Assembly: GCF_032854445.1 (NCBI RefSeq)
Contig: NC_088301.1
Coordinates: 32,222,402 to 32,286,401, forward strand
Reading direction: 5' to 3'
Length of the DNA stretch: 64,000 bases
Source of the DNA: Liolophura sinensis
Taxonomy: Eukaryota > Mollusca > Polyplacophora > Chitonida > Chitonidae
In this document: piece by piece, positions 11,301 to 59,552 of the stretch
Layout: the number at the start of each line of letters is the position of its first letter
Position numbering within the stretch: position 1 is the first letter of the stretch
Translations under genes and position numbers: made by a program
The notes under the pieces: model-generated
Database searches by the model: none
The model's input: the letters and a program-made list of their open reading frames with translations, nothing else
What the model was told of the DNA's origin: nothing

Positions 11301-14300
11301 TCATTTAGTGATTAAAACTGTAAGTAGTGTACTGCAGCAAACCAATGTTAATCCACCTCTTTCAGGGTCACCTACTCTCATCATTTAGGTAACATCTGAT
11401 CAGGATCAGTGGTGACAAAAAACAAATTAATGATTGCTGCATATTCTTTCTAATTTTGAATTATGTTTTTTCAAAACCATTAATTTCTGATGTTGCCTGG
11501 AGTTTATACTTAAATGCAAGCCATCTTAATATGTTAGACAGCACAAAGCACCAGTCACATATAACTTACCTATGTTGTTTACGTAAATAATTTCCCGTCT
11601 TTTCATTCACAACATGGACGCGCACCAAAGGATGTAAAATATAGAAGTCATTTTTAAGCTTGTCTGTTCTGTGAATGGTCACAGCTAGAATACGGCCATC
11701 ATCCTCCACATCAGGGACAGCTTCCGCCTCGGCAAACTCATCAGCTGGTTCTGAAAACCATACATTTACAACATTATTTATTTATTTATCTGATTGTTTC
11801 TTAATGTCACACTGGATGATTTTTCACTCGTATGATGGCAATCAGTATTATGGGTGAAGGAAAACAGAGTTCTGGATGACAATGACGCACACTTGGTGAG
11901 TCACTGAAGAACGTTTGAGCATGTGGCGTAGATATGCGCACAATATTGGTGGAACATAAGTGATCACAACAGTCAGACAAGCTTCTCTAGGCAAAAAACT
12001 GAAAGGTAGCATAAATCACTAACTGGTATTAAAACACCATGATTAAAATTGTATATGTCTGCTGTTAGAGTGTGGATTTCAGTAATACATTCATGACGTA
12101 ATCTTCAATAATGTCTAGTTACTTCAGCAGAATCGAAAGCACATACCTTCCTCTTTCTTTTTCTTTCTCTTCTTTTTAATTTTTGTTGTTTCATCAACAA
12201 TTTGAGCTGTGTCTGCTTCGTCCCCAGTTAATGAAAGGGCGGATCTCTGGAAATCCCAACCACCAGTCCATAGTAAAACAGTTGTTGTCATTTTTAAACT
12301 GAAGATGTTAGTCACATACAAAGACAGATATCGCGCAAAATCTCCACAAGTATATAAAATGACTACAAATGAACACTGTTCTCTAAAACCAAAGATAGAA
12401 TTTGGTAATTTCAACAAAACACAAAAACACACTGCTTACTTTACACCTATAGACTGTGCATTGCTAGAATCTTGCAGACCTTTAGACATCAGAGCTTGCT
12501 TTCACACAGATTTCTTAAAAACTGCTTCTGCTAATGCAGTTTTAACTCACATCTGTGAATTTATGAATATTAAAATTTTTTTTCCCAGGAAAGCCCTTAA
12601 TTTGTCTTGTGAAGATCAGTGAATTTGGGTCATGACTAAACCAAGTGCACAGCTAATAGTAAAATTCACTAATTAGTATGACAAATGATGTGCTCAATGA
12701 TAACCTTTGATTTGTTTATCAAAAAGCAAAACTTAACAACAACATGGCACCAAATCCATCCATATCATATGATGTCCTAAGTGTGCCGCCTATCATGCAG
12801 ACAGGCCACCATACAGTGTTTGTCCTGTACAAGTCATTTCCCGCAGCTTTAACTGAATTAAACACAACTGCTCGTCTCTTTTTCACAAGGGAAACTGCAT
12901 CAAGCATTAAAGTGTCCTATAAAAAAATTTAAAAAAAACATAAAAACACAGAGAAAATAACCTCAATGCATAAGCCATTTATCAGGCTGTAACACATGTA
13001 TTTTACACATACCGGAGATTCAATGCTTTCTCCATCTACCTGTGGCGGACTGGGGCTAGGCTTTGTCTTCTTCTTTCTCTTCACTTTGACAGGAGCTTCT
13101 GCTGTTAGATCATCTACAGAGGCTGATCTATCTTCTTCTTTCCCCTCTCTTTTTTTCTTCCTCTGAACATCATGTGGCACTGCTTCCTCTCCAGTTACAC
13201 CTGTCTCTGATAACACTTTCTTGGCATGCCCTTTTTTCCTAGGTGTAGCAGTAGGGGAGACAACTGGTGATGTTACAGACTCTGTTTCTTCAGGACTCAA
13301 TGTCTCAGGGATACGCTTCTTCTTTTTCTTTACTTTCTTCTCCTCACCAGGGGAGACAACTTCTTTTTCCTCTGGGTACACAGCCTCAGAATTCGCTTCC
13401 TTCTTCTTTTTCTTCACTTTTTTCTGGGTTTCTGATGAACTAGAGGTAACCACAGGGGGTGCCAAATCAGATATTGACATGGTCCTGTGTACAGAGTCAT
13501 ATGCGAAAAGTGAGAATAGTTTTTGTGCATTTGGTGCTATCAGTTACATGTGACCGGGGCATGTTCTTTGATTATAAGAGGAAACTGCAGTCCGTTTCAC
13601 ATTTTGCTTCCTGGACTCCAGCAAACAAACAAAAAACAGTTTTCAATGCGCTTTATATTTACAGGGCTTTCATCATTACTTATTATGAATATGGTAAACG
13701 ATATAAAATTTCTCCAATGACTAAGTTGCTTGATGCTGATAGCTCTATCACTCTTTTATACAGAAAGGTGTTTGAGCTTTGTTTGAAAGACAAATGTAGG
13801 ATTATGTCCTGCTGAAAAATGTCAGTTTCAGCACCATATATGTACATGCATAAAGTAATATCTTATGACCAGTATTTCCCTCTAAAATGCACTTTTTGGG
13901 GCAAAATTTTTGGCCACTAACCTTAAATGTCTTATTAATATTTGCAAGCTTATTTGATTGGTGTTTTACATCATACCCAAGAATATTTCACTTATATGAT
14001 GGCATTATGAAGGGAGGAAGCTGGGCAGGTTGCTGGCAGTCACAGGTACATGTATTTATGAACAGTATTGCAAGCTCTTCCATATCTAGTTGCCTGTCCC
14101 GGGTTGTCTAACATATCACTCTCCATCTGTCAGACTTATCCCACACCTCCCAAACTGTGCCAAACCTCCCAAAATGCGCCAGACCTCCCAAACTGTTTCC
14201 GGCCTTCCAAATTGTCCCAGGCCTCCCAAACTGTTCTAGGAATCCCAAACTGTTCCAGGCATCTCAGATTACCCAAACTGTTCCAGGCCTCTCAGATCAC

Positions 14301-22164: not shown

Positions 22165-22975
22165 ATTAAAATAAAGTTACGACAACACTCCGTGAAGCAA
22201 CAAAGACAAAAATGTTGCAGCACCAATCTATAAAACAACACACAGAAACGTATCTCTGTGGAGCAACACACAGGAAAATGTTATAGCCTTAGTTTATGAA
22301 GCAACACACAACAAAACCTTCCAGCATCAATCTGTAAAACAACACACAACAAAACGTTACGGCATCAATCTGTGAAGCACCAGACAGGAAAACGTTGGAG
22401 CATTACTTCGTGAATTAGCACACAAGAAAACGTTACATCATCTTTCTGTGAAGCAACACAAAGGAAAACGTTACAGTATTACTATGTGAATTAACACAGA
22501 GGACAACGTTACAAAAACAACACAAAACAAACCCTTCTGTATCACTATAGGGCAGGAAAACATTACAGCATCATTATGTGAGACAACACATAAGAAAACG
22601 TTACAGCATTATTCAGTGAAGCAACACATGGGAAAACGTTACAATATTACGTTGTGAATCAAAACACAGGAAAACGTTACAGTATTACTAAATGAATCAA
22701 CACACCGAAAAACGTTGCAACATTACTTTGTGAATCAACACATAGGAAAACGTTACAGTATTACTATGTGAATCAACACACAGGAAAACGATACAGCATT
22801 ACCAGTGAAGTGGCACATTGGCAAAACAGTATCAATTGGTACGTAAACACCACAGCATCAAGCTGTGAGGCAGCATGTATGTAAATACACGGGTATGAAT
22901 CTATCAAGCAGTCCACGTGTAAACATTACAGTATCAATCTATCAAGCAGCTCACGTGTAAACATTACAGTATGAT
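22165..22975 (-). repeat. 39-bp degenerate minisatellite, array 0a
   Basis: About 20 units of AAAACGTTACAGCATCAATC plus TGTGAAGCAACACACAGG. Read on the minus strand the unit contains GCTTCACAGATTGATG, which matches GCTTCACAGACTGATC of the array before the receptor at 29680. It is thus a relative of the receptor-linked arrays, in minus orientation, with no receptor to its left. Confidence 0.85.
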
Positions 22976-23034
22976 ATATTATGGTCATGGGAACTTTCCG
23001 ATTAAGAACACAGATTGAGCGAGTATTCCTCCTT

Positions 23035-23825
23035 GTATCCAGTATTGGTTTGTAACGTTTGTAACAAAAGAAACGTGTCCACTACACGACTGGTTTGTAA
23101 CGTGTGACAAAAGAAACGTGTCCACTACACGACTGGTTTGTAACGTGTGACAAAGGAAACGTTTCCACTACACGACTGGTTTGTAAAGTGTGACGAAAGA
23201 AAAGTGTCTACTACGAGATTGGTTTGTAGCGTGTGACAAAGGAGAATTGTCTACTACACGATTGGTTTGTAAAGTGGCACACAAGAACAATGTCTTCTGT
23301 ACGATTGGTTTGTAAAGTGGCACACAGTAAAATTGTCTACTGCACGATTGTTTACATACATTGGTATACATGAAGGCTGTCTACTACACGACTGTTTACA
23401 TATATTGACACACATGAAAATTGTCTACCACACAATTGTTCACATATATTGACACACATGAAAACTACCTACCACACTATTGTTTACATATATTAGCACA
23501 CATGAAAACTGTCTACCACACAATTGTCTACATATATTGGCACACATGAAAACTGTCTACTACACGACTGTTTACATATATTGGCACACATGAAACTGTC
23601 TATTACACGACTATTTACATATATTAGCAGACATGAAAACTGTCTATTACACGATTGTTTACATATATTGACACACGTGAAAACTGTCTACTACACGATT
23701 GTTTACATACAATCAATGAAAACTGTCTACTACACGACTGTTTACATACAGTCAATGAAAACTGCCTACTGCACGATTATTTACATATATTGGCACACAT
23801 GTAAACTGTTAACTACACTACTGGT
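23035..23825 (-). repeat. 44-bp minisatellite, array 0b
   Basis: About 18 units of GAAAACTGTCTACTACACGA plus CTGTTTACATATATTGGCACACAT. On the minus strand the unit carries ATCGTGTAGTAGACAG, comparable to ATCGTGTATCCTGTGACAG of array 3. The left units use CTGGTTTGTAACGTGTGAC instead. It continues array 0a after about 60 bp. Confidence 0.85.
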
Positions 23826-23959
23826 TTGACAAGAGACACACTACGTTGATCCTTGAAACGGGAGAGAGAAAAAGTTTAATTGTACACAATTTACCCTACT
23901 ATTACAGGGCAAAAGGTGACAAAGACTAGTATTTATTGACACTAGTTAAGTTAGTTATC

Positions 23960-24176
23960 GGCAGTTAAGAATATTTCACTCATACGACGGCGGCCAGCAT
24001 TATGGAGAGCCCGGGGTAAACCCACGATCATCAGCAGGTTGGTGACAGACCTTCCCACGTGCGGCTGGACAGGAAGCTACATGTAGCATCAGCTAGACTT
24101 AAATTCACAGCGAAGCTTATAAGTCATTGTGCTGCGCTATAGTACGTCAAGAACCAGGCCACGAAGGCCTCGACAT
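23960..24176 (-). repeat. SINE-B copy
   Basis: AAGAATATTTCACTCATACG, CGGCGGCCAGCATTATGG, AGCCCGGGGTAAACCCACGA, and a head end of CCAGGCCACGAAGGCCTC. Lies between array 0b and the minus-strand receptor. Confidence 0.8.
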
Positions 24177-24746
24177 GGCGTAGCATTATAACTGGATACA
24201 TTTCAATTCTTCTGCTACCTGTACCATTGATACACAAGCACTACCAAACGCACTGTTTGACATATATTACAGTGGACGTGACGATTTGGTTATTAATTCC
24301 TCATATAAAGCGTGTATTATAGATGTGTGGTCGACGAAGCGTGTATTATCGGATAGCACGTCTATTAGAAAAGGCTTTTGGTTACCACGGTTACGGGAGT
24401 TTGATTAGCGACCTGTCTATTTATCGGAAAGTAAAGTGTGTACTGTATATAATGTAAACGCTTTAGCCCAATAAAATCGAAATAGACAGGTCTCGGTGCT
24501 AGCAGTTTTAGTGACACAAAGTCTGGTTAATGCATTCGATATTTACATTCAGTAAACTTATTCTGTGAAATTTCTAGAAAAATTGTAATAAATAGTACCT
24601 CGTACTTTGACATAGCCTCTATGTTGCCTTTTAATTCAAACAGTGCTAATTATTTTCGGCACTGACGAAACGCATATTGGCTATTCGATGTAATTATTTC
24701 GGCACTTCATGCAAGACAAAATCAATATTCGTATATTCAGACTGAA

Positions 24747-25652
24747 TTATTTTCTGCACTTCACGCAAGGCGAAACGTTACGTCTTGATAAGAAGAAATA
24801 CATAATAGGATTAAATATGCTATTGACTAAACTTAGCGATGACAACACTATTAAAATTGGGTAGGTACTTTCCGTCAGCTCTGTTCGAAGTAGATAATTT
24901 GTTATCAACATGATGTTGTATGGGAGATAACAGATGAGGAATGCAACAATTATTGCCATGACAGCTCGTGTGGATACCGTTTTCTGTGTTCCGTGAGTCT
25001 CGCTTTGTATCACGTGATTTCGGAATCTTGCCAATTTTGCAACGTGAAAACCCGAGATTAATAAAAACGGTAAGACGAAATCCGGAAGGATGAGAATACC
25101 GAGAACGAGATCGTAGTCTTTAGTAAAAACGCACGTTACAAAGAAACACGTGGGAGTCTCGAACTTACCAAAAATAACGGCGGCAAACGAAAACGAATTT
25201 TCAGCAATGAAAAGAGGCCACATCAAGACACAGACAAATTTTACTCGTGTGGCCGTTACGTGTCGCTTGGCAAAGAACGGGTGCACTACGAGCAGGTATC
25301 GCAGAACTGAGAAAGTTACGACACTGTAACCGCTAATAGCCATCGTAACACGAAATACGAACACCGTGAATCGGCAAGAAGTATCGGTCATCTGACCATC
25401 CATGAAATGAGTGTACAGGAGTGCCGACGGAGCCACTACGAGAGTGAATACATCTGCTACTGCGAGATTCATGAGCACTATATATGTGGGAGATGACCTC
25501 ATCATTTTGTCCTTTAATACACTGATTATCAACACGATGTTCAGAAAAGTTCCGGAATATGCAATTACGGCGTAAGACGCTGGACCTGCCCAAGGGCGTG
25601 CAGTGTCCGCCGAGTGAAACAACATGAAGTTGTCCGAAATGCATTGATTCAT
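24747..25652 (-). CDS. Rhodopsin-like orphan GPCR 1, intronless
   Basis: A 301-residue seven-helix receptor, probably chemosensory or peptide-like. The ligand is unknown. The start MNQCISDN was chosen because both paralogues begin MNQC or MNRC at the same point; an in-frame ATG 105 nt upstream (25757) would add 35 residues. Helix 1 has LN, helix 2 LAVAD, helix 3 begins at TSC and ends SVLRYL (L in place of the usual D of DRY), loop 2 has a partner Cys (PTC), helix 6 CYLPYN (Y for W), helix 7 NPIMY. An STRAVMA segment precedes helix 6. The C-tail is short and Cys-containing. No intron is needed. About 220 bp to its right begins array 1. Confidence 0.9.
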   Translation of the reverse strand: MNQCISDNFMLFHSADTARPWAGPASYAVIAYSGTFLNIVLIISVLKDKMMRSSPTYIVLMNLAVADVFTLVVAPSALLYTHFMDGQMTDTSCRFTVFVFRVTMAISGYSVVTFSVLRYLLVVHPFFAKRHVTATRVKFVCVLMWPLFIAENSFSFAAVIFGKFETPTCFFVTCVFTKDYDLVLGILILPDFVLPFLLISGFHVAKLARFRNHVIQSETHGTQKTVSTRAVMAIIVAFLICYLPYNIMLITNYLLRTELTESTYPILIVLSSLSLVNSIFNPIMYFFLSRRNVSPCVKCRK

Positions 25653-25869
25653 TGAGGAGTTGTGGAATAGGGGTTCTGGTGTACGGAACTGTGGTGTAAC
25701 TTGGTTACTAGCGTTCGAATGAAACAAAGAAATATTTAGCTTAGCATGCCAGCACACTGTAAAGCACAGAAAATTTTAAATGAAAGGGTACACGATCAAT
25801 TTGTAAGGTGTAGGTAACCGACTGAAGCTAATTGTAAGTAACAGAACAAACGACCTCAGAAAAATGGTA

Positions 25870-27450
25870 CCGTCAGGAAAACATGATACACGATCGGTTC
25901 GTGAAGAAGGCTGCCTGGAAAGTTGTTGTTGTCGAAATGTGAAGAATGAAACAAGGTAACTTTCCGTGGATATAAGATTATACCATATGCGGCAAGTCAG
26001 CGTACACGTTTGTCTTGTTACTTCCCTTAGCACATGAAAACTTTGAATTACAGGAAACAAGATCGAATTGTATAGCATAGCAAAGCGGGGAACACAAGCA
26101 AATTAGCTGTAACAGGATACATGGACAACCACTTCAGGAAATAATTCCGTCAAACTGAACACCCAAAGACATGACACACGAACCACTCGTAAAGAAGGGC
26201 ATAGGAAAACGACCAGATATAAAGCATGAAAAAGGGAAGTTTTCTCTAACAGAATATAAGATCACACTATGCAGCAATCAGCAAAACTGTTTACACGATA
26301 AGTTTGAGAGGAACCCTTGTACTCATGAAGAAGGACACAATAAGATTTATAACATTTTGAGGGTCACGTATTCCGATGCAGGATACGCCAACAGTTACAA
26401 AAACTGGTTCCCGAGAAAATGTCGCTAAACGATACACCGTCAATGTGAAAATTCTCATTACAGGATCATAAACAGGACAAATGGAGATCTCTTGTTACAG
26501 CATACACCATGAGAAACAGTGAAATGGAAATCTTCTGTCATTGGATACCCCATCACAAACAGGGCACATAAAGTATTCTGTTACAAAATGCACCATCAGA
26601 TACGGGGCACCTGAAATCTTTTGTTACACGCTTCACCATCTACATAAGGGCGCAGGAAATCTCCTGTTACCATCGGAAACAGGGAAATGGAAATCTTCTG
26701 TCATAGGATACTCTATCAGAAGCAGGGCACATGAAATATTCTGTTATACGGTACACCATCTTACAGAATACCATCAGATGTTGGGCACCTGAAATCTTTT
26801 GTTACAGGATACACTGTCAGAAACAGGGCACAGGAAATCTTCTGTTACTGGATACACCACTGGAAACAGTGTGCAGAAAATCTTCTGCTACAGGATACAC
26901 CATCAGATACAGGGCACCTGAAATCTTTTGTTACAGGATACATCATCTAAATCAGGGCACCCAAAATCTTCCGTTACACGTTACACCGTCAGAAACAGGG
27001 CGTAGGATACACCACCAGGTACAGTGCACAGAAAATCTTCTGCTGTAGGATACATCATCAGAAAACAGGGCTACAGAAAGTCCTCTGTAACAGGATACAT
27101 CATCAGAAAACAGGGCTACAGAAAGTTCTCTGTAATAGGATACACCATCAGAAAACAGGGCTACAGAAAGTCCTCTATAACAGGATACACCATCAGAAAA
27201 CAGGGCTACAGAAAGTCCTCTATAACAGGATACACCATCAGAAAACAGGGCTACAGAAAGTCCCTCTGTAACAGGATACATCATCAGAAAACAGGGCTAC
27301 AGAAAGTTCTCTGTAATAGGATACACCATCAGAAAACCGGGCTACAGAAAGTCCTCTGTAACAGGATACACCATCAGAAAACAGGGCTACAGAAAGTCCT
27401 CTGAAACAGCATAACCATCAGAAACAGGCCATCTGAAATCTTCACTGTTT
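25870..27450 (-). repeat. Array 1: 45-bp minisatellite in the 5' flank of GPCR 1
   Basis: The regular core (27035-27425) has about eight copies of CATCAGAAAACAGGGCTACA plus GAAAGTCCTCTGTAACAGGATACAC. The part nearer the gene is degenerate. On the receptor's sense strand the unit reads GTGTATCCTGTTACAG, the same core as arrays 2 and 3. Close to the gene, minus-strand text includes TTCACGAACCGATCGTGTAT, matching the array 3 unit. The 45-bp period is divisible by three, which opens long false reading frames. Confidence 0.85.
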
Positions 27451-28239
27451 GCAGAGGACAAACGAAATATCTGTCCCACGAAAAATGTAGCTTGACATTA
27501 GGCAATTGAACACCTGAATTGCCCGCACCTGAAGGTAACGCAGGGTATTGTCAGATGTACCCGTTGTTTTTAGCAACTATCTGTCATTCGCCGTTCGTTA
27601 ACGTGTTGTATAAATATGACCCTTTACCAGTTGTATTCTCTTTCTTACATATACATGCGTACGTATATTTGACTTTCCTCAATCGTCGACTAGTCGTTAG
27701 AGCTAGTGTTTACGACTGTGACTTTAGACAACAGTGATGTTAATGCAATTCACTCTTTGGACAAATAGGCCTATATATTTTAAAATCATAGATCGATATC
27801 AACTAATAGCATGACTCGGTTAAGTGATCTTCCGCCAAAATGGGCCTAGGTAGTGATTGGTACACAAATTCCCATGGTGTCTAACGGAAAGGCCACTACA
27901 TATAATATCTTCTGCTGACTCCATTACACCTTTGATAAAATCTCAGCTACGCTAAATTACACTGTGCAACAATCATCACCAGTGTTAAAAATCAATGCGC
28001 GATCCAGGGAACACTTAATGCTATCATCTAGACGGCCAATATATACTGTCCTCAATATAGCGTTCCTGAGTCCTGTTTCAGAAACAGATTGTATCTCTTG
28101 TTGGCGACTGATTTATTATCGTGATAAATTTTGCATTATTGTGCTTATAATGTGAAGGGGGGGAGGTGGCGGTCCTGATTTCTGTGCAACAAAATGTTAT
28201 GTTTCCACGGAATGTTTCAGTGAGCGCGATCCTGTAACT
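27451..28239. other. Gap between arrays 1 and 2
   Basis: About 0.8 kb separating two divergently oriented receptor/array units. No gene, SINE or motif could be supported; composition is mildly AT-rich. Confidence 0.4.
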
Positions 28240-28990
28240 GAAATTTTGTTTTCGTGCTTCACAGGCAACAAAAAATTTTCCGTTGTCTTTTGCAGACTGG
28301 TCGTGTATATTCTAACACAAATTGTGTGTCTGTGATTCAAAGACAGATCGTGCACCATTTAGTACAAGATATGTCTTCACAGGCTAGTCGTGTATCCACC
28401 AACACAAAGTCTGCCGTAGTGCTTCACAGACTGACCGTGTATCCTCTAACACAGAGTTTGTCTTTGTGCTTCTCGGACCGAACGCGCATCCTCTAACACA
28501 GAGTTTGTCTTTGTGCTTCACAGACTGACCGTGTATTTTCTAACACAGAGTTTGTCCTTGTGCTTCACAGACTGACCGTGTATTTTCTAGCACAGAGTTT
28601 GTCCTTGTGCTTCACAGACTGATCGTACATCCTCTAACACAGAGTTTGTCTCTGTGCTTCACGGACTGATCGTGTATCCTCTAACACCGCGTTTGTCTTC
28701 GTGCTTCAAAGACTGATCATGTATCCTGTAAGCATGTCTTTGTGGTTCAAAGTCTGATGATGTACCCCTCGACACATTGGTCTTTGTGCTTCAGAAACTG
28801 ATCGTGTATTTTGCAACTGAAAGTTTGTGCTTCACTGATTGATGGTGTATTCCGAAACACAAACACTGTGCTAACAGACTGATCGCGTACTCTGAAATAT
28901 GAACTCTGTGCTAGCAGACTGATCGTGTTTCCTCTATCAGAAAGTTTTCCGTCTTGGTACGCTGAGTGATCGTATATGTACCTTCTAAAT
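28240..28990 (+). repeat. Array 2: 47-bp minisatellite in the 5' flank of GPCR 2
   Basis: About 14 units of GCTTCACAGACTGATCGTGT plus ATCCTCTAACACAGAGTTTGTCTTTGT. Six central units are regular; the right-hand units shorten and decay toward the receptor start at 29680, with traces such as CACACTGATTGTG to about 29230. It has the same orientation as the receptor. Confidence 0.87.
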
Positions 28991-29389
28991 CGAAGTGATT
29001 CGTGTTTCTCTTATTGAACCTCTACCCAAAGTTTGTCTATGCTTCATGGGCTGATGGCGTATCGGTATCTTGTGACATAGAAGTTACCTTTGTGTACTTT
29101 GCAGTCTATTTGTGCTTAACACACTGATTGTGTTTTCGTCCAACATTTTCCTTTGTATTTCGCGGAGTCTAATAGAATCGGATTGTGTGTTCTCCACAGG
29201 AAAAAAATTGTGTTTAGCACACTGATTCTGGATCCTCTAAGGATCTCTCTTTTTTGTGTACATGACAGACAACATTGCAGTATAATGACTATCCGAATCA
29301 TCTGATCATTTCTCCCTTTCTGGAGAGGATCAATCAATGCTATGACTGAATGCATGCACGACATTTCTGAAGAAATAGTGTTCTTTCTT

Positions 29390-29640
29390 TTTTAACCACG
29401 ATACGGAAGTTCGAGTTCGTGAAAAGTTTTACAAAAAAGTTATTACGAGTAGAGAACAAAGGAGAAAATTAAGGAGCTGAATATTTGAGAACTTAAGGAG
29501 TTCATAAGGAAAGTGTCATTTGTGCCTCCATCACAGGGAGAAACAGGTGACTGGTAAATTACCGCTTACAAAAGTTGCCTATCACTGTGCCTAGGCACAA
29601 GAGGACCTTTTTTAACTTCAGCGACAAAAGGTTCCATTCT
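29390..29640. repeat. Dispersed repeat D, copy 2
   Basis: Contains AAAAAAGTTATTACGAGTAGAGAAC, TTGAGAACTTAAGGAGTTC, GGAAAGTGTCATTTGTGCCTC and GAGAAACAGGTGACTGGTAAAT. It ends about 40 bp before the ATG of GPCR 2, so it forms the promoter-proximal or 5' UTR sequence. Confidence 0.6.
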
Positions 29641-29679
29641 CAAAACCTGCTTGTTAATACAATACTTGCTTAACTAACG

Positions 29680-30591
29680 ATGAATCAGTGTACTTCGGAA
29701 AATTTTGTGTTCCTTGGGTCTCAAGACACCCCGGGGGCAGGGATTGGGATGGTGTCGTACATAGCAGTTGCCTATATAGGAGCTGTTTTAAACATGATCC
29801 TAATCATCCGGGTTTTGAAGGAGAAAACGTTGAGGTCGTCCTCCACTTATATTGTCCTTGTCAATCTCGCATTTGCGGATTGTCTGTCTTTAGTACTCGT
29901 TGCTTCTATGCTTATTTACTCGTACTTTTCAAATGGTTTAACGGATGGAGTGTGTTCGTTTGTCGTTTTTACCCTCCGTGTGTCGATGTCACTCAGCGCT
30001 TACAGTTTAGCGACTTTCTCATTTCTGCGATACTTACTACTGGTACACCCGCTTTTTGCCAGAAGTCACGTGACATAAAGCCGCAAACTTCTTTTTTGTC
30101 TGCTGATGTGGCCAACGTTTATGGCGCAAAACGCGTTTACTTTCTGGAGTGTGGTTTTTGGTAAATTTGAAACAGCCACCTGTGTTTTTGAACTTTGTCT
30201 TTTTATTCCTAGCTACGACCTCGTCCTAGGTATTCTTATTCTACCAGATTTTGTCTTACCATTTCTGTTAGTCACGGCATTTCACATAGCAAAACTGGTG
30301 AGATTTCGCCAACACGTGATACAAAACGAGACACACGGAGCACAAAGAACTGTATCTACCCGTGCTGTCATGGCAATAATCATGGTCTTTCTCGTTTGTT
30401 ACTTGCCTTACAACGTAATGATGCTTACGACGTACTTATTTCGGATAGAATTTTCTAATGTCACATACCCAATAATTGTTCTTTTGTCATCTTTAACCTT
30501 GGCTAACAGTATCTTTAACCCCATTTTATATTTCTTTTTATCACGCCGCCAATGTTTCGTTTTTTCGATCTGCCGAAAGCAGCCAGTTTGA
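29680..30591 (+). pseudogene. Rhodopsin-like GPCR 2 with one premature stop
   Basis: Paralogue of GPCR 1 and 3: MNQCTSEN start, LAFAD in helix 2, VCSF Cys of helix 3, FLRYLLL in place of DRY, CYLPYN in helix 6, NPILY in helix 7. An in-frame TAA at 30076-30078, just after ARSHVT at the end of intracellular loop 2, replaces the Ala codon of the paralogues. The downstream frame is unchanged and intact to the stop at 30591 (303 codons plus stop counting the TAA). No other lesion is seen, so this is a very young pseudogene, a null allele, or a sequence error. Translation would stop after helix 3. Confidence 0.88.
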
Positions 30592-30732
30592 AAACCCTAG
30601 TTTGTTTTCTGCAAGGATATTTCGGACGTCCTCAGTTAAGAGGAAAGGTGAGATGAATAACATTTTGAACACCTGAAACTCAACACCAAGCAAGTATTAC
30701 CTTCAAGCGGCCTTAAGCCTGTTTCAGGGAGG

Positions 30733-30890
30733 CTTATTTATTTATTTATTTCATTTATGTATTACGCCGTGCTCAAGAATATTTAACTTATACTACCGCG
30801 GCCAGCATAATGGTGAGAGGAAACCTGAAAGAGCACGGGGCAAAACCACAGCCTTCGGCAGGTTGCTGCCAAACGTTCCCACGTACGAAG
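30733..30890 (-). repeat. SINE-B copy, truncated
   Basis: (TTTA)n tail, TATGTATTACGCCGTGCTCA, AGAATATTTAACTTATACTA, CGCGGCCAGCATAATGG, then GGCAGGTTGCTGCC and the CCCACGTACG end. It lies about 140 bp past GPCR 2. Confidence 0.75.
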
Positions 30891-33430
30891 GTAGGTTTTA
30901 GTGTTGTCCTGCAATGGCCTCGGTGACGTTGCATGAATACAGACCGCAATCATTTCCAGACTCATGTTGTCGTTTGTGTATTTGTGGTCATTTTCCAGTT
31001 TTTCTGGCCATTGATAGGTGACTTTTTTTAGGACTGGCTTTGCCGCCATGTGTGCATCTGATGATATAAAAGGTGAAACATTTGCAAATGGAATATATAT
31101 CCAGACCTTTGTTGTGTTAGTCTTATTTCTATCGTGACACCTTGTCGAGATTTTTACCAGTTAATATGATTAAGACGTGGCGCATTGATAGAAAAACTTG
31201 GACAGCGACGAAGTGTGATATCTGGCAAACGGCCACGCGTAACCGGTGTAATATGGCCTCTTGCTAATTTATCTCAGATAGGGTTTTATTCTAACTGTTC
31301 ATGAAAATGCATAAATAGTAGCAAATTACACGCCACCTAGCAGCATGGCTTAGGTAGAATTAGGTAATGTTAATAGCAATTTATTATAGACGTGAATGGT
31401 CTAGAATTTCTCAAAATGCTGTGTCATCACATTTAACATTCAATACACATCTCACATGATGATTTGATGATCTGATGACACTAAGGCTAAGATTATTTTT
31501 TTTCCAGTTATTGTCGAATGAATACATTATGGAAAAAACGTGTGCAACTAAGAACGACACTGTTGACATATTTCATAAAAAATGGTCAGCCATTAGAGAT
31601 CAGGTTAGCTAATTGGTTAAATCATTATGAAGAAACTTCACTGTAACAAATTACATCACCCAGTACTACGTCAATGTTTTGTCTGTAACATACGTATATA
31701 TATATATAAGTATTTATGTACGTATACATATTCATGCTATGTCCTTGTAAATATGTATGTATATTTTGAGGTATATGATGTATCAATGTTACACGTATGT
31801 TGCAAATCCTGTAATTAAAAAAAAGGGTCGAGCGAGGGAAAGATGTTCTTCTGTACAAATTCCATACATAACCCATGTAATGAACGCAGTGGAAATGCTT
31901 TGACTTTGAACCAAAAGGGATTACTCTAATGAGTCACCCCAAATGCCTCTTTATTGTTCCGATCGAACCTTTTCTTGTCCCTAAGATTGTATAGCCTCTT
32001 CAAGGATTTATGTACTTCATTGTATGAAGTATCAGTCTAGCTCGTCAAGGAATTTATCTAACCTCGTTAAGGATTACGCTATCGGGACATCTTTAAGGAA
32101 CTATCTAGACAGTGGCGTCTGGACTCAATCTTATGACGTCATAGGCCCCCAATCACGTTGTTTTAGGACTAGGTCGGGAAGCTCTTTCTTGGTTAACTAG
32201 CAGTGTGCGTGTGTGCGTGTGTGAGTGTTTATGAGTGGGGAATGTTTAAAAGCGTTGAGGCCTCTTAATGAAATGGAATAAATTGGGTTTCATGTGCAGA
32301 AAGGCCATAAAATTACAATGATTTGAAATACAGGAAAAGCATGGTTTGAGGGCGTCGGCTGTATGTACATATCTCTAATGCATTTTCATTGACTCTGCTG
32401 ATAAGTTTGCCTACTTTTAGTGCGTGCACTGCAAGATACTGTTTACCGTGCTAAAAGCCATAGCGACATTAACACCATACTCTTATCGTGTTAAGACTGT
32501 TGAGGCGAGTATACATTAAGTATTTTGTCATATGAATTCATGAATTATGGTCAAGCAGTTGATCGAAAACTTGGTAACACACATATTCGAGAACACAAGT
32601 GAATCCAGTCCGAATATTGGCAAATTGTTTCAAGCGAGACAAAATAGTAGTTTTGGATTTTGACTGGTTCTCTTTGACCCGGACTTGTCACGTGAGGTGA
32701 GCAGACATCATGTGTGTAATCATGTGACGTGAAAATCTGACGACAAAATGAGACCAGCTCTTGACAGTCAACTTGTTACTGGACATTTAACCTGCACGTG
32801 AGTGACCTCAAATGGGTTTCAGTGTGGGACATTTTTAACTTGGCTAAAATGGTTGAAGTCAGTGAAGGTTACACACAAATGGCTAAACAGCGTTAGGCAT
32901 ATCTACTATTTCTCAGATATGTTCATAACCTAGTTAATTCTACATTCAACATTATACGTATACCTTTTATAGTTCTATAGAACACAGTCAATAGATTTTG
33001 TGGATTTCGTCTTCAACTTTTGTTCGAGTTTAAAAACTGTTTAACATACATGTCTATATGTGATAGCGAGGAGAGAGTGCTTATTAATAGTAAGCTATGG
33101 CAATGGTGATAGCTATCTGCTGTGTTGACCCACGCTCTGACTCACACACTGCTCATATGTGATCTAAACACTTTCGGGGAGAGAGTGCATTTCCGCGATT
33201 TGCGCGAAATCACTTGTGTCAACATTTCAAAACATAAACAAATATATCGGATGATATTTCTGGAGAGATACAAGAGAAGTGATTTCACTATAATGTGTGT
33301 GGTTTCCACTCAAGGAACTTCTCTGATACATCCAGCTTAATCTACTACTCTGACTCATTCGGTGTTGCTAACGTCATGTAGACCATGTTCGAAGTCCTGT
33401 CCGCCATATTCGTTGCTCCACGATTGGTTT
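30891..33430. other. Intergenic DNA between GPCR 2 and array 3
   Basis: About 2.5 kb without a supportable gene. Contains a short (TA)n at 31696-31707, a GTGTGCGTGTGTGAGTG run near 32208 and AT-rich text. Reading frames are short and without recognisable domains. Confidence 0.4.
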
Positions 33431-33559
33431 TGAATCCTCTAAGCTGAAACTCTCCGGGTGCTGTCACTCATTCTGACAATGTGCCTAGTAAAGGTCCAGT
33501 TTGATCTGTTACCTGCTTCACAAAAGGATTTGGTATTTTCAGGAAAGAGGGCCCTCGTA

Positions 33560-33945
33560 TCTCCTGTATCTTGTTCCACAGCCTGATCGTGTATCCTGTG
33601 ACAGAAAGATCTCCTGTGTCTTGCTTTCACAGCCTGATCGTGTATCCTGTGACAGAAAGATCTCCTGTGTCTTGCTTTCACAGCCTGATCGTGTATCCTG
33701 TGACAGAAAGATCTCCCATGTCTTGCTTTCATAGCCTGATGTGACAGAAAGATCTCCTGTGTCCTGATTTCACAGCTTGCTCGTGTATCCTGTGACAGAA
33801 AGATCTCCTGTGTCTTGCTTTCACAGCCTGGCCGTGTACACTGTGACAGAAAGATCCCCTGTGTCTTGCTTTCACAGCTTGCTCGTGTATCCTGTGACAG
33901 AAAGATCCCCTGTGTCTTGCTTCACAGCCTGATCGTGTATCCTTG
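33560..33945 (+). repeat. Array 3: 51-bp minisatellite in the 5' flank of GPCR 3
   Basis: Seven and a half copies of CCTGATCGTGTATCCTGTGA plus CAGAAAGATCTCCTGTGTCTTGCTTTCACAG; one unit has lost about 10 bp. Units are near-identical, so this is the youngest array. It stops about 70 bp before the receptor ATG at 34014. Each unit has a pyrimidine-rich tract ending CACAG, which looks like a 3' splice site. Confidence 0.9.
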
Positions 33946-34013
33946 ATCAACACCAAGGACTATACTCTCACTCAACACAGACTTTTCACAGATCTCTCAG
34001 CGATCCAACAGGA

Positions 34014-34904
34014 ATGAATCGATGTGTATCGGACGACCTGATGGTGATTAACTCTTATGGCATGTCGCACCTGTGGTTCAAATTTACTTACATAGCTATT
34101 GCTTACTCAGGTGGCATTTTGAATATTGTTTTAATCATTAGCGTGTTAAAACAGAAATCGATGAGATCTTCTCCTACATATATTTTACTAGTTAATCTCG
34201 CTTTATCGGACTTACTGTTTTTAACTATACCTCCTTCCGCCCAGTTCTACGCCTATCTTAAAGGCACTTTGTCGGACGGCATTTGTATATTTTCTATTTT
34301 CATATTCCGTGTAACTATTGTTGTCAGCGCCTATAGCGTTGTTACCTTTTCAGTGTTAAGGTATTTGCTCATTTGTCAACCACTGTTCGCTAGACGTCAT
34401 GTGACAGCAAAGAAAATGGTTGTCATCTGCCTTATCATGTGGCCCGTCTTAATGGCTGAAAATGGATTCTGTTTTGGAGCAGTGGTATTTGGTCATGCTC
34501 TCACATCAAACTGTTTCTTTGCCATGTGTGTATTTAAGCCGGGCTATGACTTTATTCTTGGCACTCTTCCCATACTTGATTTTGTACTGCCTTTTTTGTT
34601 AATCTCGGGATTTCACGTGAAAAAGCTGGTGAGTTTTAGAAAACACGCGGTACGAAGCGAGACAAGCGGTGCGCAAAGGAACGTTTCCGCACGTGCTGTC
34701 ATGGCAATCATTATAACGTACGTGTTATGTAACATCCTCTATAACCTCATGATTTTTGCCATCTACCTACTTAAGATAGAATTCTCTGAATCCATTTTCC
34801 CATGCTTAATAGTGTTATCTAATGTGATATTGTTCAACAGCATATTTAATCCAGTTATATATTTCTTTTTGTCTCGAGGTATACACACTTGTTGTCGTTG
34901 CTAG
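34014..34904 (+). CDS. Rhodopsin-like orphan GPCR 3, intronless
   Basis: An intact 296-residue receptor, paralogous to GPCR 1 and 2. Start MNRCVSDD aligns with the paralogues. Features: LALSD in helix 2, GIC at the top of helix 3, FSVLRYLLI at the DRY position, loop-2 Cys (SNCFF), ARRHVTAKK after helix 3, SARAVMA before helix 6, NPVIY in helix 7. Helix 6 reads LCNILYN where the paralogues have ICYLPYN, so the usual proline (P6.50) is missing, which is rare in class A. The C-tail ends HTCCRC, a likely palmitoylation patch. Array 3 directly precedes it and a polyadenylation signal follows. Confidence 0.9.
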   Translation: MNRCVSDDLMVINSYGMSHLWFKFTYIAIAYSGGILNIVLIISVLKQKSMRSSPTYILLVNLALSDLLFLTIPPSAQFYAYLKGTLSDGICIFSIFIFRVTIVVSAYSVVTFSVLRYLLICQPLFARRHVTAKKMVVICLIMWPVLMAENGFCFGAVVFGHALTSNCFFAMCVFKPGYDFILGTLPILDFVLPFLLISGFHVKKLVSFRKHAVRSETSGAQRNVSARAVMAIIITYVLCNILYNLMIFAIYLLKIEFSESIFPCLIVLSNVILFNSIFNPVIYFFLSRGIHTCCRC

Positions 34905-48286: not shown

Positions 48287-49927
48287 TCAGGCCTTCGTGG
48301 TTAGGCTTGAATTATTAGATGCTGCTGTGAACAGGTCCGTCGACAAAGTTACTGAAGGCAATGATTCCTTTCCTACTTTCCTAGCCAGCATTTGGACAAT
48401 TCTTTTGTTGGCACAATATGCCAGAGCTATAAACACGCCCTGGAGACCATTCAGAATGACAAACAGGTACCAGAAGACGTCACTTTGAAGGGCAGAGGCG
48501 ACGAAGCCAAACACCCAAGTAAAACCCAGTAGCACGGATAAGCGGCAGTAGGCGTTCAGGTGAGTTTTGTTAGCTCTGTTTTTAACAGATTTCATGTCCG
48601 GAACACTTCGGATTGCCAGTACAGTCTTAACAAAGCAAAATGTGTTGAAGACCAATATTATTGCCAGGGGCAGAGCGAAGAACACACCGATGTCTAAGGG
48701 ATCGCTTATAAAACACTTCTTTCGTCCATACCCAAAAGTCTCCCCAGAGGAAGTGGCTAGATTATAACCGAGGCAGCTGGACACGAAGATTAGAGCTAGC
48801 AAATGACTCACGCATGTGTATTTGAACAAAGCTCTACCATGCTCCGCCTTTGACCCGGCGCTGCTGATTACCGACATGTTGGTGAAGGAAGCATACATGT
48901 GGTAAGCGCTGACGGCCATCCAGCCAAATGTGGCCAGCCAGCTGTAGTGTATGACTACACCAATCACCCTACATGTTGTGACATCGTCTGTGCCGTCAAT
49001 ACCGGCTTGGAACAATAACTGAGCAAAAAACAGATGTAGTATAAGTGCCATAGTGTTTTTACCTGGTAGTGTTCGTAGTTGTGGAAGGAGACAGAAAATT
49101 ATGAAGGTTAACAACAAAGACAACATTGATAAGCATAGACAAGCAAAGGAAACAATCCCTATTGTGTTATCCGTAAGAGTAGCTGTTTGATTTTCACCAA
49201 GTTGTTCCAGTATACCAGATAATATACTTGAACAAAGTTTCAGCAAATCTTTACAATAAAGATGAGAGGATCTGTTCAACTTGACAAAGGTATTCTTGAT
49301 ATACAGAGTTAAATTGTGTTCATCGTAACTATGCTCGATGCCAGAAAGGTTCACTTCTATTTGGGGACAGTTTAGAGTATTGAATAATGGGATGATTTCA
49401 AATGTACATTCGTTATGCAGACAAATCTTCAAGCTTGCGGGTAGGGCCTCTTGAGCCAGAATACCAGGCGTATCATCTGACATAGAATCCAGACAATTGA
49501 CAGGTTCTGTATGTAAGCTGACATTCTGCCCACCTACGGTCAAACCTTTCAGACGATTCTCGAGGGCACGGAGCTTATCTTCAGTGTCAGATAAACTGTC
49601 AGTTGATGATGGAGCGAGAGTAATGTTGAGAAAGAACCCCAACGCGCGCTCAGCGTTGTTGTTGTCGGGGTTAGCGGTACTGTTGATGAGAATTTCACGA
49701 TACTCAGCGTAGAAAAGATGAAATGGTCGATATTCCAGCCATTCTTCCTTCAGTTCGTCCACGTAGGTTGTGACGAGATCTTGAAGATGACCATTGTCCA
49801 GGGGTGGGGAAAGGGTCACTTTCAATAACAGTTCATAGCCCTGAGCGTCTGCTGTTACGTACACAGGTTGACACACTCCCTCAGTGTAAACATGTCTTGG
49901 CGGACACTTCGTAGGCAGACAGTTTTC
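48287..49927 (-). CDS. Receptor L exon 2: ectodomain second half and 7TM
   Basis: 546 codons plus stop after the acceptor TTTCTCAG. Begins ENCLPTKCPPRHVY, continues with a region that fits no domain I can name, then seven helices starting near GIVSFACLCLSMLSLLLTF. The tail ends ASNNSSLTTKA. Nearly the same as receptor R exon 2 except for the stalk plus helix 1 and the tail. Confidence 0.92.
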   Translation of the reverse strand, partial: ENCLPTKCPPRHVYTEGVCQPVYVTADAQGYELLLKVTLSPPLDNGHLQDLVTTYVDELKEEWLEYRPFHLFYAEYREILINSTANPDNNNAERALGFFLNITLAPSSTDSLSDTEDKLRALENRLKGLTVGGQNVSLHTEPVNCLDSMSDDTPGILAQEALPASLKICLHNECTFEIIPLFNTLNCPQIEVNLSGIEHSYDEHNLTLYIKNTFVKLNRSSHLYCKDLLKLCSSILSGILEQLGENQTATLTDNTIGIVSFACLCLSMLSLLLTFIIFCLLPQLRTLPGKNTMALILHLFFAQLLFQAGIDGTDDVTTCRVIGVVIHYSWLATFGWMAVSAYHMYASFTNMSVISSAGSKAEHGRALFKYTCVSHLLALIFVSSCLGYNLATSSGETFGYGRKKCFISDPLDIGVFFALPLAIILVFNTFCFVKTVLAIRSVPDMKSVKNRANKTHLNAYCRLSVLLGFTWVFGFVASALQSDVFWYLFVILNGLQGVFIALAYCANKRIVQMLARKVGKESLPSVTLSTDLFTAASNNSSLTTKA

Positions 49928-52900
49928 CTGAGAAAAATAAAACGTGAAAACGGTATTCACCCTGTTTGCCCTGGGGCTAAACTAAAAATGTTGTCAACAG
50001 GTTAATCTTTGTCTCCCAATCTTTGGCTGCACTTAGCACATCTCATCTCTCGTTTTGACAATATTATAATTACACAGTATGTAATGTGCATTGAGAGACA
50101 ATTTATTTCAATAACAGTTCAGACCTGGTTTAAAAGGAATCGTCTTGGGGCACAGGTTAGAGGCAGGCAGTTTTGCTGAATGAAACAAATCTGACATATC
50201 AAAGAAGTTGGGAAAAGCTGAATATTCTTACCAAGTGGTAATAATATTTTTAGACATATTTTGTGGGTGACAACTTTACCATAACAATATTGACGTTGAA
50301 GACAAGGGTAATAATCTACACAAAATCATCTGAGCTTTTGATTGTGGTATACAATCTAGATTTTCATATTCTAGACTTATATACTCTTTAACTGAGGTGT
50401 AGTGGGAAAATAGATCTGATTAAAGAATTGATTAGAGACCAACAACGTTTACCTAAACAGGTGCGATCGACGCAGAAAATGACGCAACTTGGCTGATTAA
50501 ATATACAGTTGCGTACCTAAAATTGTCGCAATGGGTGTTAAAGGACAATAATAAGTTTACGGTGTATTTCGATTGTAACAAAAATAACATACCAGTACAA
50601 ATATAGTAACAAAGATTCTGATTGCGGGTTGCTGAAGTTTAACGAAAAAGGAATCGCTCGGGTTTATCCAAAAAATACAATGATGTGCTGCAGGGAGCGT
50701 GGGCCAGGCGCATACTCCTTACAGCGCACGCCTCGGGTCTCTACACTCTACGATTTTGTAAGTTCACTTAATGTAAACGATGTCTAAGTTTTTGCGTTAT
50801 AACAATGTAAAACGTAATTCTCAAATTGTTACAAGAATGTTTCCACACCGAGAGAAAACTTTGGGTCAACTGACTCAAAAATTTTAGTAATTTGAGTCAT
50901 ATGACCACATTATCTCAGTCATGGACGATACCATGGACGTGAGTTTTCCGACTAACCAAATGAGTCAAAATATGACTCAACCGAATCAGCTCCATTGAAT
51001 TACTCAGGTTTTTGAGTCAGGCGACTCAGACTTTTCCTTCAGTGCACATAACTGTAAACCCCCAGGTCAGATCTGCCCAAACCTCCAGGCCAGATCTGCT
51101 CTGGGTGTTCACCAGTAAGCTAGTCACATCAGTAACCAAGCCTTATGCTTGTGGGGGAGTGCCCATGGCCTGAGAGGGGGTGGGAGGTCACATGATCTCC
51201 ACACCCCAGCCTTGCCATGCGGCCCTTTGTTTTAGCCCCATTCCCTCCAAGACAGCCGAGCAGTCAAGACGTGTTTTGCCAAGATCACAGCCAGTCTTCA
51301 TTCATACATTTCACCCAGGTAAGAATTAAACCCTTGTGGTCTCAGAACACTTCCATAAACTGATATATGTAATTGTTGTTACATATGCACTTATCTGACT
51401 GTGCCATATAGGATATATTATGCACATCTTTTTGAGTAATTTAAGTTATTACTTCGGGTAGTCATTCACGAGTTAGTGTGATCTCTGCAAAGAGATACAC
51501 ACATTCTAAAAGGATTGGCTAAATAGATTTCAGGAATTTACACTAAGAAACAGGTGGGATAACTGCTTCTCCCATCAACCTGTTTACAGTGAAAATATTT
51601 GGTTAGCTGTGTTAGTTTGGGGTAAACCTCCACATTGGAACTATTAACCCACTTAAGTTCATTAGTTTTAAAAAGTGACGACTGTTTACTTAAATTAATC
51701 TGGAATTTAAGGATTATACCTTAAATTAGCTGTTGCCTAAACTTAACTTGATCTCCTAACTTCCAAAGCAGATAGTTCCTCTTACACTGGTTAACACATG
51801 GTCAAGCTTAATTCCTTTGTTTGAGCTGACCATGCCAGCCTCCAGTAGCTACAGACATGTGTATTACCCCAGTGTATGTAAGCAAGGTGGCAGCACATCT
51901 GGAAGGGATTAATTTCTCCTTGGCATCTATTGCCCCTAATGACCCCTGCTGGTTAATCTCATCCTATCAGCCCAGCCTCTATCCAGTGGCTAAACAAGAT
52001 GGCTGCACCAGCAGTACACAGGCCAAATGAAAACTCAGTACAAGAGCAACCACTTGTAACTGTTCTGAGTTTTTGTATTTAATTATGCCTGTGATTGTCC
52101 TAACACAACACAATCCTCAGAAATTACATATCACTGCAGATGCACATATACTGGAATTTATCATACTTTTGGACTTTGACATTTTGAGTCCAGTGTACAT
52201 GTTCTCTATGGCCAGTCAGTAAGCATTTGTTATTATTGTTGATAGATACATATATATGGATATTGACTTTGTATATACAGTTAATGTGCATATGGGCTAT
52301 CGCGTGGTAATATTGTATTTAGTTTATAGATATTATCCAAATCCCCTGTCTGACAATCATGTTGATGTTATATCGTTCGACTGATGTAGACCTGGTCAAT
52401 TATTGTTCCCTTATGAGGAATTGCATACATATATCTCATTGATAAATGGTTATCATGTTTAAATGTTTCCGTCATAATTTGTTATTCTGTCTAAATGCGT
52501 AATTTGACATTCTGACTACCTTAAGAACAAGAGTTACCAGCACATACTATACAATGACATATCACATACATGTGGTTATCATGCATGACCCGTATCATTG
52601 TTCCTCATGCAGTAACCGTTCTGGGTTGTACAACATGTATACAGCCCCTAGCATGAAAATGTACCACTCAGATTATTAATGCATACATTAGCATACACTA
52701 TTGATTTGTAACCTGTATGTTAAATGATCGAAAGAGTAATTTACGAATGTTATGTTTTGGTTGGAGGTGAAGGTCAGCTGGCATAGACCAGTATGTCTTG
52801 TTATATATGAGATATGACCTGGCATCATAAAATGCATTTGTACCCATCATGTGGATACACTGAGTCATCTAAATTTCTAATGCGAGCCTGGCCCCTTATT

Positions 52901-55070: not shown

Positions 55071-55129
55071 GTCCTGTATCTGCACCATCTGTAGTTCCAA
55101 TACCTTGGGCCACTTTCCGGAATACAAAT

Positions 55130-58478: not shown

Positions 58479-59552
58479 ATGCCACAGTATCTAACAGACA
58501 TAACAGTGTTCTGCGTATTTTTGCTTACTGGCAGTTGTGTCCATGGCAATAACTTTACCACCATTCCATCCGTAACTTTGCCAGTCAGAAACTTGTATAT
58601 TCCTGCGCTATTTCCACCATCATTGATATATTTCGTCAATGAATCTTTAACCGATTTGGATACTCTGATAGAGGCTAACAGTTTTGCGTGCGGTAGATAC
58701 TCTTTCTGTAATTCCACATATGGAGGGTACGAGCGTTCACTACCTTGTGCGAAGTGCGAGCCTTGTGAGTGTGATTCTCTGTGCCATGATTTCGGGGATT
58801 GCTGTGCCGATCTGGGTGGAACACAGAAAACCCAGTCCATTCCCTGGACGTGCGTGAAGCGGCTTGACAAGTCCATGGGGATAGATATGAATTCTTATGC
58901 GTTCATGGTAACTTCCTGCACAGAGGCTGGCAACAGACCTGGAAACACCAAGAACAACAAACGTAAATGCGAGCAAGCCACTGAAACCAACATCGACGAG
59001 ATGACGCCAGTCACTGATGTCCTCACCAATGTCACCTACAGGAACCGTTTCTGCGCTGCCTGTTATGACGTCACTAACATTACACTGTGGAGACTTTCAG
59101 TTGAGTGTCAGGTAGGAGCAATTCATGTGACAGGTGTGTCTAGAGAAGAACTTGCTCGACGGGTTCTGATGTCGGATAAATGTATCGTCAGAGATGTACG
59201 CCCGCCAGATGTCTACGTCAGACCCTGTTACAGCGCCTACTTCAGCACCTGTGACGTCAGTCTCCGTGGTAATTACAGTAGTGTGAGCGAGAGACTGTGT
59301 TACTCATCGTCTGGAGCTCCTGTAACTATAAACCAGGAGACTTACCGTAACGTATTCTGTGCTCTCTGTAATGGTATTGTGCTTGACCGTTATTGTACAT
59401 TTTTTGAAATTGAATTTGCTCCATTTCCAAGATATCATGGATTAAACGTCCTCCTAGATCTTAACCCCAAATCCTCTGACCAAGCTACAGGAAAAGACAA
59501 CTCTCTCTTGAATGACTCGTGTCAAACAACTGAAACATATGACCCCCTTACG
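58479..59552 (+). CDS. Receptor R exon 1: signal peptide and SMB-like ectodomain
   Basis: 358 codons, ending CTTACG followed by GTAAGT. From ANSFACGR onward it is very similar to receptor L, up to VFCALCNGIVL; the last 50 residues (DRYCTFFEIEF...) differ much more. Before residue 50 the two genes are unrelated at sight, consistent with a recombination edge. Confidence 0.9.

Follow-up and report, generated by a model that had tools for sequence, protein, structure and literature searches.

In the current study, we characterized a group of tandem repeat arrays (A0-A3) in the chiton Liolophura sinensis that is associated with three paralogous GPCR genes (R1-R3). By sequence, the units of A1-A3 are one minisatellite family, with a unit of 43-51 bp, read in receptor sense; A0a is clearly related to it and A0b tentatively so. 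We tentatively favor the interpretation, to which we give a probability of roughly 0.4, that an old 5′ minisatellite was inherited together with the genes, underwent separate turnover in each copy and was kept alike mainly by exchange between arrays. The window, meaning the whole 64,000-nt stretch of DNA that was analyzed, corresponds to positions 32222402-32286401 of contig C7 in a genome of 609,464,459 bp in 632 contigs. The mitochondrial genes are arranged in what looks like the order ancestral for molluscs. All positions below are those of the window, in which the following features were recognized:

A0a, 22193-22830, minus strand: degenerate 38-bp array located 3′ of R1, with no recognisable receptor behind it (TRF; extended to 22193 by DNA search)
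A0b, 23044-23818, minus strand: 43/44-bp array, a tentative distant relative of the others (TRF)
R1, 24747-25652, minus strand: rhodopsin-type GPCR of 301 aa, open (7tm_1, E 1e-30)
A1, 25749-27443, minus strand: array 5′ of R1 (TRF, profile, identity bins)
A2, 28229-29103, plus strand: 47-bp array 5′ of R2 (TRF, profile, identity bins)
R2, 29680-30591, plus strand: rhodopsin-type GPCR with one in-frame TAA (7tm_1, second half only scanned)
A3, 33559-33943, plus strand: 51-bp array ending 70 bp before the ATG of R3 (TRF, profile, identity bins)
R3, 34014-34904, plus strand: rhodopsin-type GPCR of 296 aa, open (7tm_1, E 5e-27)

Results

A first-pass annotation made from the sequence had placed tandem arrays of period 45, 47 and 51 upstream of the three GPCR paralogues, and both TRF and the 7tm_1 model agree with it. 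TRF reported a period of 45 on the R1 side (27004-27428, 9.5 copies), 47 on the R2 side (28375-28809, 9.4 copies) and 51 on the R3 side (33559-33943, 7.8 copies). A1 and A2 reach beyond these TRF bounds, to 25749-27443 and 28229-29103, respectively, with weak outermost units. Head-to-tail units of about 10-100 bp in several copies, as in other minisatellites, occur in A1-A3; a homogeneous part with degenerate edges is present in A1 and A2, and A3 is homogeneous nearly throughout. Within A1, young 45-bp units lie distally (27.06-27.44 kb) and are followed by older 43-bp units (26.44-27.06 kb) and then, on the gene side, by nearly erased units that continue down to 25749. A2 is homogeneous at 28.4-28.7 kb and decays from there in both directions, with the longer decaying stretch facing the gene, from which A2 is separated by a gap of 577 bp. 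A1 and A2 are 0.8 kb apart. No receptor-sense ORF of ≥120 aa was found over the arrays except that of R1 itself, which reaches 9 bases into its array, and the arrays were accordingly rejected as coding sequence; antisense to R1, a 126-aa ORF runs across A1. A structured RNA was likewise rejected, with zero Rfam matches at the gathering threshold within 20-36 kb.

The in-frame TAA of R2 is at 30076-30078, and the solved structures nearest to R1 by sequence are chemokine and peptide-type receptors. A comparison of R3 with the genome returned at least 57 matches (132 of 259 candidates scored). Among the matches listed, only four have ≥50% identity to R3, namely R1, R2 and R3 themselves and a fourth receptor, R4, which lies on the same contig 0.56 Mb away; the remaining matches listed show 21-46% identity, and many are clustered on contig C6. 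R1-R4 form one clade in a 12-row tree (support 100/99), with no resolved order in its internal branching. Since only these four close members were listed, with mutual protein identities of 46-61%, the suggestion that the array is a present recombination substrate spreading the genes found no support. A search of the whole window with R1-R4 by tblastn yielded no convincing new receptor (best new E 0.15, at 11345-11512, which is not behind A0), and a lost receptor behind A0 was therefore rejected. Outside the arrays, the flanks of R1-R3 share short matches only. The longest of these, 113 bp at 70%, resembles a dispersed repeat.

In receptor sense, the unit common to A1-A3 reads GAT(C/G)GTGTATCCT.T.ACA and continues into a right half in which the arrays differ by indels. 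The shared core predicted earlier, or close variants of it, is seen in the units of A1-A3, and the likeness is even wider than the core, extending over the unit in dimer alignments and consensuses, with indels in the right half. When consensuses of A1 (as two subtypes), A2 and A3 were compared, with 200 shuffles per pair, z was 5.0-13.0 in receptor sense and ≤1.7 on the opposite strand, and raw scores between the arrays were 34-56, as opposed to ≤22 for 27 background array rows. A1 and A2 are the least alike, with scores of 36 and 34 vs. 42-56 for pairs with A3. Gapped consensus identities ranged from 31/42 to 38/43 (JC 0.13-0.32), but the shuffled mean is 0.72, making these identities and JC values unreliable as distances, and it is the raw consensus scores that carry the argument. 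Among 33 arrays from the loci examined, 12 pairs matched; five are A1/A2/A3 pairs, and seven join adjacent rows of one array complex. The dimer alignments also match across the unit junction, with gaps in the right half, and the tandem state therefore predates the split of the arrays. Separate growth of each array from one conserved single-copy 5′ element would account for the orientation and for a shared core with different periods, but unrelated breakpoints and periods would then be expected instead of units that are alike across the junction and beyond the core, and we consider such an origin very improbable.

A profile was built from 12 dimers drawn from A1, A2 and A3, so that these training stretches match by construction, and was used to search both strands of the window and 26 loci (242,612 bases). 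All 38 matches with E up to 10 (11 of them with E >0.01) fall at 22332-33943 and share the strand of the receptor beside them, with minus-strand matches as far as 27443 and plus-strand matches beginning at 28229. Orientation thus follows the gene, the inverted R1 included, as had been proposed. The profile had zero matches in the flank of R4, in the flanks of 20 distant receptors (one of them covered in part over its 3 kb) and in 84 kb of control DNA, which consisted of 12 hand-picked stretches of 7 kb at round coordinates.

Judged by its consensus, A0a clearly appears to belong to the family of A1-A3. Its raw scores with A2 and A3 are 36 and 38 (z 6.8 and 6.1; maximum of 28 in 200 shuffles), its score with old A1 is 24 (z only 2.2), and it holds three weak profile matches at 22332-22599, minus strand (E 0.05-0.24). 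A0b may tentatively be called related. Its scores of 28 and 30 with A2 and A3 (z 4.3 and 4.1) do not exceed the shuffled maxima, which are 28 and 32, respectively; background arrays score no more than 22. A0b showed zero profile matches and zero short-word matches to A1-A3. Under forced wraparound, the top score of the first A0b piece came from the opposite strand (z 12.5 against old A1). This speaks against same-strand membership of A0b; z-scores obtained for whole tracts by forced wraparound were discarded, since a tandem query inflates them.

As far as the following searches reach, the unit is largely private to this cluster. With ≤1 mismatch, the core pattern has 10 matches in the genome, nine of which are in these arrays; with ≤2 mismatches it has 44, including 17 in the arrays of the window, every one of them in receptor sense. 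As a control, the pattern in reverse has 10 genome matches in all. Hence neither arrays scattered through the genome nor a random orientation relative to the receptors, the outcomes named beforehand as speaking against the first-pass proposal, were observed. By coordinate comparison, all 27 core matches outside the window lie more than 3 kb from any listed receptor match. In DNA searches of the genome, A3 found itself and A2, A2 found itself and A3 (72% similarity over ~120 bases; E 2e-7 and 3e-7), A1 found only itself, and A0 found itself and its own edge. No array elsewhere was as close as A2 is to A3 in these searches, in which A1 missed even A2 and A3, so that relatives at the distance of A1 could escape. 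Within the same reach, related arrays at many places, as a dispersed satellite or transposon-derived repeat would show, were not found.

Minisatellites are common in this genome. With presence defined as an array score ≥150 within 3 kb, they were present in 8 of 24 control 3-kb bins and in 6 of 20 distant receptor flanks, where one array sits at the very edge of the 3 kb. An array upstream of a receptor is as such ordinary, and it is the shared, locus-private unit that is unusual. This abundance, together with an assembly resting on ~14x HiFi reads according to the genome report (PMC11068029), could be taken to favor chance resemblance or an assembly artefact. We find either hardly credible, given that A2 and A3 are each other's only further match in the 609 Mb genome and that the background array rows stay well below the scores of the A1/A2/A3 pairs. 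The proposed tie to the GPCR family holds in a narrower form than first suggested: the A1-A3 unit family occurs at three of four close paralogues and at none of the 20 distant receptors. The array upstream of R4 has 19/24-bp units, 450-742 bp 5′ of the gene, and its unit is unrelated to A1-A3 (z ≤2.2).

The genes and the arrays have diverged to different extents. Four-fold identity is 0.38 for R1-R2 (n = 74, random 0.26), 0.28 for R1-R3 (n = 64, random 0.28) and 0.36 for R2-R3 (n = 58, random 0.27), and it is 0.90 (n = 220) in a control pair of adhesion GPCRs in the window. Silent sites of R1-R2 are therefore near random, though not wholly so, and near-random values in all R1-R3 pairs would speak against recent conversion of the coding parts. 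A minisatellite would be expected to drift at the pace of other neutral DNA. Since the silent sites of the receptors are near random and the units can still be aligned, neutral co-duplication alone fails, and the mismatch implies that the arrays exchanged sequence while sparing the intervening genes, or were under selection at the level of the array, or spread later as a local repeat into matching places. The earlier view that gene plus array was the unit of duplication, followed by expansion in each copy, is thus plausible as to inheritance of the array with the genes, but it leaves this mismatch unexplained.

Late local spread would mean that the minisatellite arose after receptor divergence and then multiplied inside the 12-kb cluster, with its gene-sense 5′ position being partly coincidence. 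It would directly explain the much lower divergence of the arrays compared with the genes, the lack of the family at R4 and the position of A0, which has no recognisable receptor behind it. The observed arrangement, three own-strand arrays 5′ of receptors, was obtained in 5,303 of 100,000 random layouts with a limit of 1,500 bp, which is compatible with such coincidence. With a limit of 600 bp, set when the 577-bp gap of A2 was already known, it was obtained in only 579 of 100,000, or in 4,259 of 100,000 when strand was set by block. Also against late spread are the nearly erased gene-proximal units of A1 and A2 and the finding that no copy was met outside the cluster in the genome DNA searches. 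We regard late spread as unlikely. The post hoc choice of the 600-bp limit and the fading of A2 on both sides nevertheless shift some weight toward it and away from our preferred explanation.

Scored in 100-bp bins, identity decreases toward the gene from 0.85 to 0.53 in A1 and from 0.92 to 0.54 in A2, with shuffled bins at 0.51-0.56; seven gene-side bins of A1 and A2, at 0.53-0.61, are not significantly above the shuffled bins. Profile matches are found inside the faded parts (26223-26299, E 8.6e-5; 29022-29103, E 2.2e-7). This gradient toward R1 and R2 points to an old association between array and gene. It is suggestive only, because decay at the edges is common in such arrays, A2 also decays distally, A3 barely decays and the seven bins are insignificant.

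Individual units were also compared, with one A3 end unit left out and three hand-cut A3 units added to the set. Old A1 units have a mean identity of 0.73 to A3 vs. 0.74 among themselves, at a shuffled level of gapped identities of 0.64. For 9 of 39 units, the most similar unit belongs to a different array. Both the equal closeness of old A1 units to A3 and to one another and these cross-array pairs are what exchange would give. However, all nine are older or edge units and the shuffled level is high, so that noise could produce the same count. Exchange driven by distance would also seem to be contradicted by the neighbors A1 and A2, which are the least alike, and by the A1 DNA query, which finds neither A2 nor A3.

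We also considered whether the unit is preserved by function. The core block ranks 19/43 among circular blocks in A1 (all units), 29/43 in A1 (old units), 23/47 in A2 and 33/51 in A3. Core columns are thus no better kept than the rest within arrays, which argues against a simple binding site. Splice-acceptor-like sites, as defined by a simple consensus that was not trained on this genome, occur on the sense strand at 8.0/kb in A2 and 18.2/kb in A3, compared with 1.8/kb in the 84 kb of control DNA; antisense densities are 0.0/kb and 2.6/kb, respectively. A1 is at background (1.8/kb), A0a has 3.1/kb and A0b has 0.0/kb. One such site lies 104 bp before the ATG of R1, inside the last degenerate unit (25749-25797, profile E 0.019). 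As a lead only, A1-A3 might lie in a 5′ leader intron.

A functional 5′ element, that is, a cis-regulatory or leader array with many binding-site or splice-acceptor-like copies whose unit is preserved by selection on the whole array, would fit the enrichment of sense-strand acceptor-like sites in A2 and A3, the site ahead of R1, the preserved gene orientation, and units that align at z 5.0-13.0 while four-fold sites are near random. The tandem state, however, multiplies any motif that occurs once per unit, so that the count of sites is not independent evidence, and neither the background level in A1 nor the zero in A0b fits a splicing role. The shared core being no better conserved than the remaining columns, R4 being without the unit and the zero Rfam matches in 20-36 kb tell against function as well, and we judge it somewhat unlikely. 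A putative tandem 5′ control or leader element specific to this receptor subfamily, in which selection acts on the whole array while single units decay and growth at the far end replaces them, appears improbable.

Discussion

The explanation that we prefer begins with an ancestral receptor that would already have carried a tandem array 5′ of its coding sequence. The array would have accompanied the gene through its copying and through one inversion, and separate growth and shrinkage in each copy would have led to the present periods of 43/45, 47 and 51. Occasional conversion or unequal crossing-over between neighbouring arrays may then have preserved the likeness of the units once silent sites had become random, and this last step is the least certain. 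Several observations count against this explanation, including the position of A0 3′ of R1 with no recognisable receptor behind it, the lack of the unit family at R4 and the tree, which supports no particular branching order within R1-R4. Old inheritance with exchange requires no function of the array, although in the upstream or 5′ leader region the array may modulate expression.

Related minisatellites at paralogous genes have a precedent in the zeta-globin and pseudo-zeta-globin genes, where related intronic minisatellites, each of its own length, accompany more recent duplicates. As in the globin pair, each paralogue of the chiton cluster has a related minisatellite of its own length; unlike in the globin pair, the arrays are 5′ of the genes rather than intronic, and the genes have near-random silent sites rather than being recent copies. 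By title and start of the abstract, no report of one minisatellite family 5′ of several GPCR paralogues was seen among the best-ranked 4-15 matches per literature search, outside subscription papers. In Trypanosoma brucei, long tracts of 70-bp repeats occur at expression sites and near VSGs, in an archive of >2,000 genes, and promote gene conversion (PMC4858185). The chiton arrays resemble these in being imperfect tandem repeats 5′ of members of a surface-protein gene family, but they are restricted to a single 12-kb cluster whose receptors are old and divergent, and conversion of the coding part is not seen in overall four-fold identity. Nor does the same repeat stand upstream across the gene family, as it does in VSG-type systems, being present at three of four close paralogues and none of 20 distant receptors. 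Minisatellites next to or within genes are also known from human VNTRs, which are associated with expression differences (PMC8096271), and from CeRep25B, which is found near alternative splicing regions in C. elegans (PMC4039745). Those are reported as single arrays or a dispersed family, in contrast to the one family that marks several paralogues of a single cluster here (PMC8096271; PMC4039745).

If a subfamily-specific control element were nevertheless the correct explanation, the minisatellite would travel with a receptor subfamily as a regulatory address, and repeat identity would outlive the randomisation of silent sites. More generally, the locus bears on how tandem repeats become tied to, and travel with, gene families.

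Other features of the receptor region

The reading frame of the plus-strand receptor R2, one of the rhodopsin-type GPCR paralogues R1-R3, is interrupted by a single in-frame TAA at 30076-30078 and is otherwise open; this codon may reflect a base error, a polymorphism or a young pseudogene. Downstream of R1 and R2, a 113-bp match (approximately 23967-24063 vs. 30775-30887; 70%, E 1e-12) lies on the same window strand at both receptors; it resembles a SINE-like, dispersed repeat.

Upstream arrays also occur at other receptors. At R4, a close paralogue 0.56 Mb away, a pyrimidine-rich 19/24-bp array lies 450-742 bp upstream of the gene (L001, 3443-3734); its sequence is unrelated to the arrays of R1-R3. 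A distant receptor on contig C13 has an unrelated 51-bp array roughly 2.1-2.6 kb upstream (L005, 1966-2548). In the interval that separates A1 from A2, which are divergent arrays, TATAAATA is found at 27609-27616, directed toward R2; it may occur there by chance. An array tract is also present 3′ of R1 (22193-23818), with no recognisable receptor behind it; it may have flanked a gene that has since been lost.

Other GPCR genes and contig C99

The window also holds two GPCR genes of the secretin-type 7tm_2 (adhesion-like) class, arranged as an inverted pair, with accompanying N-terminal ORFs:

48287-49960, minus, 7tm_2 GPCR gene
60146-61852, plus, 7tm_2 GPCR gene
53964-55127 and 58479-59606, inverted pair, N-terminal ORFs

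A Pfam search matched the ORFs to no family; by eye, they look alike. The two GPCR genes share 85% protein identity (0.90 at four-fold sites).

Elsewhere in the assembly, contig C99 carries seven COX1 copies spaced about 15.5 kb apart, an arrangement that resembles a mitochondrial genome concatemer.
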